Assembly (NCBI RefSeq): GCF_000280905.1
Contig: NZ_ALAP01000098.1
Span: 1-64,000, forward strand
Length of the DNA: 64,000 nucleotides
Direction of reading: 5' to 3'
Source: Streptomyces sp. AA1529
GTDB taxonomy: Bacteria > Actinomycetota > Actinomycetes > Streptomycetales > Streptomycetaceae
The notes beneath the pieces are model-generated. The model saw nothing but the letters and a program-made list of their open reading frames with translations. It ran no database searches and was not told the origin of the DNA. Position 1 is the first letter of the stretch, and each line of letters begins with the position of its first letter. The translations under genes were made by a program, and so were the position numbers. Shown piece by piece: positions 8,360 through 9,913 of this stretch.

Positions 8360-8811
8360 CTGGCGGCTCCCTCGTGAAGCGCCGTCAGTGCGGGCTGACG
8401 GCGGACGACCTCTGGCGTGGCTGCTCGGGGCAGCGGTCTGGCGTGGCTGCGCTGAGGCAGCGATTCGGCGTGAGCTGCGCTGAGGCAGCGTGGTCTGCGG
8501 TGCGGGCGCGGCTGAACGGTTCCGCTGCCGACCTCGCGGCTCACGGACCGGGCCGTCACCTCGGTCATGCCCGCCCCGACGGATGGTCACGCTCCCTTGC
8601 CTGTGGCCTGGAGCACGCTGGGCGGAGCGGCAACGATAGCTCTTGGTGTACGGCTGCCACAGCTCCCGGGGCAGGATTCTGGTGGTTCCGGCAGCTGCGC
8701 GGGAGGGTGAGATGAGGCACAGGGCCCGATTCCGGGCGTTCAGGTGTGCGACCCGCGTCCACCGGGCAGACTGTCCGACCGCGGCCGGGGTGGATGCTGC
8801 AAGATAGCGGC
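8360..8811. other. Divergent promoter region between citrate synthase and pdxH
   Basis: This 452-nt region separates two divergent genes and should contain both promoters. The only clear structure is the tandem repeat at 8411-8493. I could not fix convincing -35/-10 pairs for the citrate synthase side. Confidence 0.5.
8411..8493. repeat. Three imperfect tandem repeats, 26-30 bp each
   Basis: Units at 8411-8436, 8437-8463 and 8464-8493 share the core GGCGTG-GCTGC-CTGAGGCAGCG. Each unit can fold as a short GCTGC/GCAGC hairpin. They lie 52-134 nt upstream of the citrate synthase start, so they may be in its leader or operator. Confidence 0.6.
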
Positions 8812-9537
8812 GTGCCTCACGCCGATGACGTTGACGACGCTGCCGCCGACCCCGCCGACGCAACCGCCACCACGGATCCGACGGATCCGACCACCCTCGA
8901 TCCCGCCGCGATGCGGGCCCACTACCGGGACGAAGGGCTCAGCGAGAGTGAGCTGGCGCCCGATCCCTTCGCGCAGTTCACGCTCTGGTTCGCCCAGGCC
9001 ACCGCCAGCGGGCTGCACGAGCCCAACGCCATGATCTGCGCCACCGCCGACGAACACGGCCGCCCCAGCACCCGCACCGTCCTGCTCAAGCGCCACGACG
9101 AGCGGGGCTTCGTCTTCTTCACCAACTACGGCTCCCGCAAGGGCCGCGAGATCGAGACAAACCCGTATGTGTCGCTGCTCTTCCCCTGGCACGGCATCGC
9201 CCGCCAGGTGATCGTCTCCGGCACCGCGGAGCGCACCGGGCGCGACGAGACGGCCGCCTACTTCCGCACCCGCCCGCACGGCTCGCAGCTCGGCGCCTGG
9301 GCGAGTGAGCAGTCCTCGCGGGTGGCCTCCCGCCAGGAGCTGGACCGGATGTACGCGGAGCTGGCCGCGCGCTACCCGGAGGGCGAGGACGTTCCGGCCC
9401 CGGCGCAGTGGGGCGGCTACCGGGTGCGGCCGGAGTCGGTCGAGTTCTGGCAGGGCCGGGAGAACCGGCTGCACGACCGGCTGCGCTACAGCCGCTCGGA
9501 GGACGGCGGCTGGGAGATCGAGCGGCTCTGCCCGTAG
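8812..9537 (+). CDS. pdxH: Pyridoxamine/pyridoxine 5'-phosphate oxidase
   Basis: The 241-residue FMN enzyme makes pyridoxal 5'-phosphate, the last step of the salvage and DXP-dependent B6 pathways. Family motifs are present in order: [55 protein letters not shown] (FMN phosphate site), [14 protein letters not shown], and the C-terminal [16 protein letters not shown] with the substrate-binding Arg residues. The first 40 residues are a low-complexity Asp/Thr/Pro extension. GTG 8812 is preceded by an AAGATA-like box rather than a ribosome site, so translation may be leaderless. Confidence 0.95.
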
Positions 9538-9684
9538 CGGGCGGTCCCGCCCCTGCCGGTCCCGCGTGCTTCGTGGCGGCCCCCGGGCCCGGACGGGCCC
9601 GGGCCGCTGCCGGGCCTCCGCCGGACTTCCGCGCGGCGGCCGGACAGGCCGCGCGGGCGGCAGCACGGCAGGAGAACAGCAGAC

Positions 9685-9758
9685 GGCCCGTGGGCGACTC
9701 CCTCCGCCTGCGCGAGGCGGACGGCGTCGGTCGGACGAGTCCGACGAGCCCACGGGCC
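9685..9758 (-). terminator. Three-way-junction RNA structure ending the small minus-strand transcript
   Basis: An outer 11-bp perfect stem pairs 9685-9695 with 9748-9758. Inside it are two hairpins, 9704-9722 (7-bp stem, GCGCG-type loop) and 9729-9744. The fold can form on either strand. It lies 54 nt after the stop of the 12-codon frame at 9813-9851 on the minus strand and 148 nt after pdxH on the plus strand, so it may end both transcripts. There is no U tract. Confidence 0.55.
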
Positions 9759-9812
9759 GGGTGACTGCTGTGGATTGGCCGGCGAACCGGCGTCACGCTA
9801 GTGGCGTCGGCC

Positions 9813-9851
9813 TCAGGCCGCAGCCACCTCACACGTCCGGTGATTGATCAT
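9813..9851 (-). CDS. Very short ORF (12 codons) with perfect Shine-Dalgarno
   Basis: The frame encodes MINHRTCEVAAA and stops. It is preceded by a 15-nt stretch exactly complementary to the 3' end of 16S rRNA (9857-9871) and by a good vegetative promoter (-35 TTGCCG, 17-bp spacer, -10 TACGGT). No larger gene follows in the same direction before a strong RNA structure at 9685-9758, so this is not an ordinary leader peptide. The product could be a micropeptide, or translation of the ORF could serve RNA stability or ribosome binding. Coding function is inferred from the signals, not from homology. Confidence 0.55.
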   Translation of the reverse strand: MINHRTCEVAAA

Positions 9852-9856
9852 CAGCC

Positions 9857-9871
9857 GGATCACCTCCTTTC
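9857..9871 (-). promoter_or_regulatory. Extended Shine-Dalgarno, 15-nt match to anti-SD
   Basis: On the minus strand GAAAGGAGGTGATCC is fully complementary to GGATCACCTCCTTTC at the 16S 3' end. The GGAGG core is 11 nt from the ATG at 9851. Such full-length matches are rare in this window. Confidence 0.75.
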
Positions 9872-9884
9872 CTGTGTACTCCCC

Positions 9885-9913
9885 ACCGTAGGCACCGCCC
9901 CGAGGGGCGGCAA
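9885..9913 (-). promoter_or_regulatory. Vegetative promoter with palindromic spacer
   Basis: The -35 TTGCCG (9908-9913) and -10 TACGGT (9885-9890) are 17 bp apart. The spacer and -35 contain a 7-2-7 inverted repeat CCGCCCC-GA-GGGGCGG (9895-9910), and GGGGCGGCAA is repeated at 9904-9913 and 9923-9932. This suggests operator control of the small transcript. Confidence 0.6.

Follow-up and report, generated by a model that had tools for sequence, protein, structure and literature searches.

Locus and Parts

The window, as the whole analysed stretch of 64,000 nt from Streptomyces sp. AA1529 is called here, carries on its minus strand a small RNA gene that lies between a plus-strand ORF at 8746-9537, which converges on it and which we take to be pdxH (the name used in the preliminary description), and a divergent plus-strand ORF from 9990. 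As that description had stated, no gene on the same strand follows the RNA in the window. It had further pictured a gene for an RNA of roughly 200 nt that has a promoter of its own, a ribosome-binding site, a short ORF and a three-way junction, and this picture is supported; in Rfam the element falls in family RF02471 (Ms_IGR-5). The cmscan match covers 9877-9678 of the minus strand at full length (77.8 bits vs a cut-off of 45, E 1.7e-15), and the element is an ordinary member of this known actinobacterial sRNA family, a membership decided by the score and not by the helix that Rfam draws between the SD region and the end of the ORF. The parts are listed below; counts of loci refer to a set of 141, made up of the window, 50 more loci from the same genus and 90 that belong to other genera and classes.

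9908..9913, minus strand: -35 element TTGCCG, read directly (TTG with a spacer of 15-19 in 111/141 loci)
9885..9890, minus strand: -10 element TACGGT (TAnnnT exactly at -13..-8 in 85/141 loci)
9678..9877, minus strand: whole RNA, RF02471 Ms_IGR-5 (cmscan, model positions 1-184 complete)
9873..9876, minus strand: 5' strand of helix H1, nt 2-5 of the predicted RNA (covariation with 9833-9830)
9857..9871, minus strand: SD GAAAGGAGGTGATCC, complementary to the 16S rRNA tail over all 15 nt (sequence match)
9813..9851, minus strand: 12-codon ORF MINHRTCEVAAA, ATG 9851 to TGA (start and stop conservation)
9834..9839, minus strand: 5' strand of the pseudoknot, CGGACG, codons 5-6 (comparison of loci)
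9830..9833, minus strand: 3' strand of H1, codons 7-8 (covariation with 9873-9876)
9820..9828, minus strand: 5' strand of helix H3, GGTGGCTGC, codons 8-11 (covariation)
9760..9768, minus strand: 3' strand of H3, GCAGTCACC (covariation)
9684..9759, minus strand: terminal three-way junction, likely terminator (last part of the Rfam match)
9759-9748 / 9695-9684, minus strand: outer stem of the terminal junction, 12 bp, enclosing hairpins T1 and T2
9732..9737, minus strand: 3' strand of the pseudoknot, CGTCCG, in hairpin T1 (comparison of loci)
9721-9703, minus strand: hairpin T2 in the terminal junction (predicted fold)

The minus-strand promoter of the preliminary description is present at 9913-9908 and 9890-9885 with its 17-nt spacer between TTGCCG and TACGGT, and the position of the -10 element predicts 9877 as the +1 of the RNA. 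The 7-2-7 palindrome noticed in the spacer is real in the window (9910-9895) but not conserved, with 7-nt arms in 2/141 loci; it is identical in one other locus (L138), and a local operator is possible. In the terminal junction the two hairpins were found as described, whereas the outer stem has 12 bp and not 11. The 12-codon ORF, from ATG 9851 to TGA 9813, also stands; its stop lies between GGCC and GGCC (9819-9809), which could pair as a hairpin whose loop holds the stop. The 15-nt match to the 3' end of 16S rRNA is exact at 9871-9857. In the 7.28-Mb assembly of the window's genome this 15-mer has a single occurrence and the 16S tail itself was not seen; each of the 10 other genomes searched has the tail GGATCACCTCCTTTCT, in 1 to 6 copies.

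Family Distribution and Previous Reports

The RNA was already known before the preliminary description, as Rfam RF02471 and from transcripts in three species. In the passages seen of the respective papers, the family is supported by RNA-seq in S. lividans, where it is called SLIV_16488 (PMC8079986), is one of two sRNA transcription units matching Rfam in S. avermitilis (PMC8780764), and in M. smegmatis is overlapped by ncMSMEG15794c, the IGR-5 named there being taken to be the same RNA as Ms_IGR-5 (PMC10454040). Homologues in M. abscessus and M. smegmatis carry ribosome reads, with the caution, in the same passages, that noncoding RNAs and RNPs can yield such reads too (PMC4974804). The literature passages searched, which take in few subscription papers and lie outside the original description of Ms_IGR-5, assign it no function and contain no description of its ORF; a word search of PMC3828370 and PMC4046766 returned nothing on Ms_IGR-5. 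The RNA is not scr2736, which the S. lividans passage lists as another family, RF02831.

Members of RF02471 are present in 148 of the 150 genomes of the window's genus and in 249/394 genomes of its class, nearly always as one copy per genome. In two genus genomes (G008 and G138, draft assemblies with about 740 and 1010 contigs) the RNA is missing both by Rfam's model and by R1, a covariance model of the 5' domain that contains H1 and whose best E values there are 0.18 and 0.21. In a sample of 396 genomes of the phylum, Rfam's model matches 70 (E <= 0.001), 35 of them over the cut-off, vs 148 for R1 (E <= 1e-4), so that about half of the members found by the 5'-domain model are missed by Rfam's. 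R1 was also run on 40 listed genomes without an Rfam match: the best E was 0.0017 in the 30 that belong to the genus (2) or the class (28), which is read as absence or divergence, and among the 10 labelled 'same phylum' three were clearly rescued (E 1.1e-11, 8.4e-11, and 1.3e-10) and one was borderline (E 1.1e-4). One locus of the window's genus (L123, genome G144) keeps the ORF core and the terminal domain and has no SD, and may be a degenerate copy or have a rearranged 5' end. A mobile-element origin was considered and rejected, with no plasmid match (blastn, E 0.01) and no exact pattern match in viral contigs. A full Ms_IGR-5 copy of 76.9 bits (L262 613-788) occurs in an unannotated 'Bacteriophage sp.' scaffold from human faeces (MT835602.1, 14761-16040), possibly a bacterial contig or a prophage flank.

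The promoter, SD, ORF, and stems, whose lack in relatives would have spoken against the element according to the preliminary description, are conserved in them. The loci compared were located by covariance models, which favours conserved copies; 126 of the 141 have distinct 5' domains, and all shuffle tests below are inflated by the relatedness of the loci. All 141 were anchored on GAGGT[GA], which every one has. An alignment of 76 sequences was hand-picked for diversity, with 10/51 of the genus, 4/22 of L032-L053, and 62/68 of L054-L121, from which L068, L071, L073, L096, L098, and L105 were left out by choice. In addition, 60 new loci were fetched from R1 matches outside the 141, and 57 were parsed; the others are L292 and L337, with GGGGG as SD core, and L303, without the anchor.

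Evidence for a Pseudoknotted Fold Built on the ORF

Compared across the loci, three elements absent from Rfam's structure covary, namely H1, H3, and a pseudoknot with the terminator loop, and the helix that Rfam draws does not. H1 joins nt 2-5 of the RNA to codons 7-8. Its pairs 2 and 3 are each standard in 140/141 loci and each occur in four Watson-Crick forms (means after shuffling 101.4 and 117.0 of 141), and pair 4 is standard in 117/141 only (shuffled 86.7). On the 76-sequence alignment 95.9% of its cells are paired, vs 78.1 when shuffled and 7.5-65.2 when slid, and 42 cells are double-changed vs 6.7 shuffled; one of five measures, the number of pairs changed on both sides, gives no excess in these 76 sequences (3 vs 2.6 shuffled). 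Among the 57 parsed new loci, 52 have a standard pair 2, 55 a standard pair 3, and 53 a standard pair 4 (shuffled 27.0, 37.9, and 27.5), a test that is favoured because the model R1 contains H1.

H3 is formed by GGUGGCUGC in the ORF and GCAGUCACC just 5' of the terminal domain. The latter strand was found from the position of the terminal stem, with ACC as its anchor, a choice that favours pairs 1-3. Pairs 5, 7, 8, and 9 lie above shuffles, pair 6 does not, and pairs 1-4 are nearly invariant. Bulges interrupt the helix outside the class; they make pairs 6 and 8 mostly fail there, and the gapless count is weak.

The pseudoknot pairs nGGACn of the ORF with nGUCCn in the first terminal hairpin. 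Over 139 loci (L073 and L096 were dropped, the rule having found no loop) 90.0% of cells are paired vs 19.2-41.4% when slid, with 80 double-changed cells vs 2-18; in the 76-sequence set the values are 85.7% vs 22.6-41.4% and 49 vs 4-11. The core is almost invariant (136/139) and partly selected, because the loop was picked via GUCC, which does not apply to the flanks. In place of this core three distant loci have CGAC or CGAU with GUCG, noticed by eye, and the loop rule for them (GGUCGA) was written after the sequence had been seen. The +1 flank is paired in 100/138 loci (L073, L096, and L117 without a loop under the rule) vs 56.7 shuffled, in the genus in 45/51 vs 25.1 and in other genera of the class in 34/52 vs 23.3, with no excess in L032-L053 (12/22, shuffled 13.9) or outside the class (9/13, shuffled 9.0). 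The -1 flank is significant over all loci, with no excess among the class's other genera (14/52, shuffled 12.8). In the window RNA the predicted minimum-energy stem of T1 buries part of CGUCCG; an alternative six-pair stem found by eye, CGTCGG/CCGACG (9746-9741 / 9730-9725), exposes the pseudoknot strand in the loop.

With H1, H3, and the pseudoknot together, most of the stretch from codon 5 to codon 11 would be base-paired, with three partners in all. In Rfam's structure nt 1-13 are unpaired and the SD region pairs with the ORF end. This drawn helix has 86.7% of cells paired in 140 loci and no pair above shuffles, in the window 4/6 of its pairs are standard and 2/6 are broken, and the ORF nucleotides that it uses covary, in H3, with a downstream strand. 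A further candidate, helix H2, in which GGUCC from the SD region would pair with GGAC from the ORF, was rejected, as its four core pairs are standard in 110/140 loci and show no covariation beyond shuffles; its inner two pairs covary weakly, and H2 is retained at most as an alternative that might compete with the pseudoknot. Folding energies, computed with a model that has no pseudoknot, give H1 a probability of at most 0.03 in 10 of 11 hand-picked RNAs and make H3 likely in 8/11 but not in the window's RNA (0.01), while forcing H1 and H3 together costs 0 to 9.0 kcal/mol, with 2.1 in the window and 9.0 in L024.

Conservation of the ORF, Apparently Without Its Peptide

Judged by its complementarity, the stretch between H1 and the pseudoknot is a ribosome-binding site; if wobble pairs are counted, it is able to pair with the 16S tail over most or all of the tail's length. 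When G-U pairs are allowed the run reaches 16 nt in 113/141 loci; with Watson-Crick pairs only it is 7 in 44/141 and at least 11 in 57/141. The long exact match of the window does not extend to the family, since at least 14 contiguous Watson-Crick pairs occur in 11/141 loci only. The start region that follows has a G+C content of 0.40 vs 0.71 for the loci overall (47% in the window).

The alignment of loci indicates that the ORF is conserved as an ORF, with start and stop kept in frame. Counted over 140 loci (L123 was excluded because it has no SD), an NTG start lies 9-13 nt after the SD core GGAGG and in frame with the fixed stop in 133, compared with 1 and 0 for frames +1 and +2. The starts of these 133 loci are ATG (57), TTG (50), and GTG (26), and the remaining 7 have ATT, ATC, CTG or ACG near the start position. 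The stop stands at +15 relative to GAG in 139/140 loci and at +18 in one, as TAG in 113, TGA in 21, and TAA in 6, and the ORF has 12 codons in 124 of the 133, 13 in 4, and 14 in 5. The locus with the later stop (L136) has an in-frame extension by one codon and a peptide ending ...EVAAGR.

The peptide, on the other hand, looks unconstrained in sequence. In codons 2-4 there are 6 synonymous vs 29 nonsynonymous one-base differences, which in this small sample of 35 pairs fits a neutral synonymous share of 0.20, and within the genus the numbers, again small, are 1 and 15. GAG GTG shows no silent change in any of the 141 loci, which were anchored on GAGGT[GA], and this points to a constraint on the RNA and not on a protein. 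When each frame was tallied separately in the 57 new loci, 39 were open in frame 0 only (stop at +15), 9 in frame +2 only (stop at +14), none in +1, and 9 in no frame; 8 of the last have a near-cognate start and one has nothing. In the 9 frame +2 loci, which are distant ones from families f61, f86, f92, and f108, the frame is shifted against the conserved GAGG core, the start lies in the new frame too, and the peptide resembles LHSTSGGGSS instead of ...TREVAAG. Such shifted loci with a matched start and stop are the strongest single sign that reading from start to stop is selected and the peptide is not. Read separately, the unparsed new loci have a TTG ORF in frame 0 (L292), an ORF starting at ATT (L303), and, by eye, a TTG ORF in the shifted frame (L337).

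Taken over some 200 relatives, the comparison suggests an RNA that is kept readable by ribosomes, with its start, stop, and knotted fold, while the tiny peptide is free to change. Two points are new relative to the literature passages searched: the view that the family is a translated RNA with a free peptide, and the pseudoknotted structure. A named RNA of 148/150 genus genomes, reported in Streptomyces and Mycobacterium, thereby becomes a testable case: selection seems to keep its translation as such and to leave the peptide free, and the coding strand would be the core of a pseudoknotted fold.

A Proposed Opening of the Fold by Ribosomes, and Its Alternatives

Comparison of the loci shows the RNA family, its helices and pseudoknot, the kept start and stop, and no sign of peptide constraint. 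The reading that we favour, and that we hold with as much doubt as confidence, is of a stand-alone RNA built for ribosome binding and translation, whose fold is opened by each ribosome and whose peptide is a by-product. The 5' site would pair with the 16S tail and be followed by the A/U-rich start region and an ORF of 10-15 codons, the second half of which would also be the core of the fold, joined to the 5' end by H1, to a downstream strand by H3, and to the terminator loop by the pseudoknot. A ribosome going from start to stop must open H1, H3, and the pseudoknot, so that the fold would be reset in each round and gated by translation. The activity of the RNA, be it target pairing, protein binding or stability, may then depend on whether the RNA is knotted and free of ribosomes or has been opened by one, and the RNA might thereby report or respond to ribosome availability. 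Gating by ribosome passage, if it takes place, would give this phylum, which includes antibiotic producers and pathogens, a general means of sensing ribosome availability. Short ORFs inside pseudoknotted RNAs are known from tmRNA. The window RNA is like tmRNA in this respect and unlike it in having no tRNA-like domain, and ARAGORN found no tmRNA or tRNA genes in the window.

The main rival of translation gating is a ribosome decoy or trap, in which the strong SD holds 30S subunits or initiation complexes, the pseudoknot sits at the mRNA entry side, and free ribosomes are lowered or buffered while translation is incidental or slow. We regard it as possible but unlikely. The long wobble-tolerant run to the 16S tail would suit such a role, as would the pseudoknot strand of the window, which starts at +13 from the start codon, and the ribosome reads on homologues in the passages seen (PMC4974804); a pure trap, however, needs no in-frame stop, and start and stop are in frame in 133/140 loci and, through a frame shift, in 9 others. 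An ordinary trans-acting base-pairing sRNA with a secondary or neutral ORF appears improbable. The own promoter and the terminal stem are what such an sRNA would have, and the conserved C-containing strand GCAGUCACC could serve for pairing with targets, but H3 already accounts for that strand, and the conservation of start and stop is unexpected for an incidental ORF.

A more specific proposal is that the RNA acts as a test message: the 5' site would pair with the mature 3' tail of 16S rRNA, translation of the ORF to its stop would unlock the knot, and the cell would gauge its supply of competent, properly completed 30S subunits, or damaged 16S tails, and convert this into an RNA signal; the RNA would then be a ribosome sensor kept since early in Actinomycetota. 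This we consider speculative and rather improbable.

Dual-function sRNAs of the SgrS/SgrT type have a peptide that is a conserved functional product. The window RNA resembles them in being stand-alone and structured with a short ORF, and differs in that its family's peptide appears unconstrained, the synonymous share being 6/35 vs 0.20 expected in this small sample. A micropeptide gene with the 12-aa peptide as its product, which the preliminary description had considered, is disfavoured for the same reason and is in our view very improbable. The ORF is conserved and the residues R-T-R/C-E-V-A-A recur; these residues, however, sit on paired nucleotides, GAG GTG lacks silent changes in all 141 loci (anchored on GAGGT[GA]), codons 2-4 fit neutral change as far as 35 one-base pairs can tell, and the 9 loci with a shifted frame encode an unrelated peptide.

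Gene Context

An ORF for pdxH converges on the RNA within 1.5 kb in 33/51 genus loci and in 12/52 loci of L056-L107, and lies upstream in one (L056); at the other 38 loci, outside these groups, pdxH was not found. With neighbour genes called by simple codon bias in 1.5-kb flanks, the closest downstream gene is on the opposite strand in 95/141 loci (40/51, 16/24, 31/52, and 8/14 by group) and on the same strand in 37, with none seen in 9; in 23/141 a same-strand gene begins at most 150 nt away. The downstream neighbours vary between lineages, and together with their strands this argues that a leader role is not general and is absent in the window. In Mycolicibacterium litorale the RNA lies between two ORFs, all three on one strand, the upstream ORF presumably aminodeoxychorismate-lyase-like and the downstream one transporter-protein-like.

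In leader-peptide attenuators (trp; actinobacterial Cys), a ribosome reading a short ORF competes with base pairs that form near a terminator-like stem, and the window RNA is similar in that translation of its short ORF would compete with pairing beside such a stem. That the RNA is a leader-peptide attenuator of a neighbouring gene, or a remnant of one, is nevertheless hardly credible, for although the short ORF, alternative pairings, and terminal stem resemble attenuator anatomy and the same-strand neighbours, as well as the arrangement in M. litorale, would suit it, pdxH converges as the next gene in the window, most loci have an opposite-strand neighbour that differs between lineages, and the ORF has no run of regulatory codons.

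A parallel may exist in Caulobacter, where the consensus of the sRNA CC2171 (RF01867) has GAAAGGAGGUGAUCC near its 5' end and a 3' hairpin. Its match at 9801-9879 of the window's minus strand is at chance level (E 0.16, 17.8 bits vs a cut-off of 75), and the same 15-nt SD-like sequence in that consensus is possibly, and at most, a parallel in another phylum.
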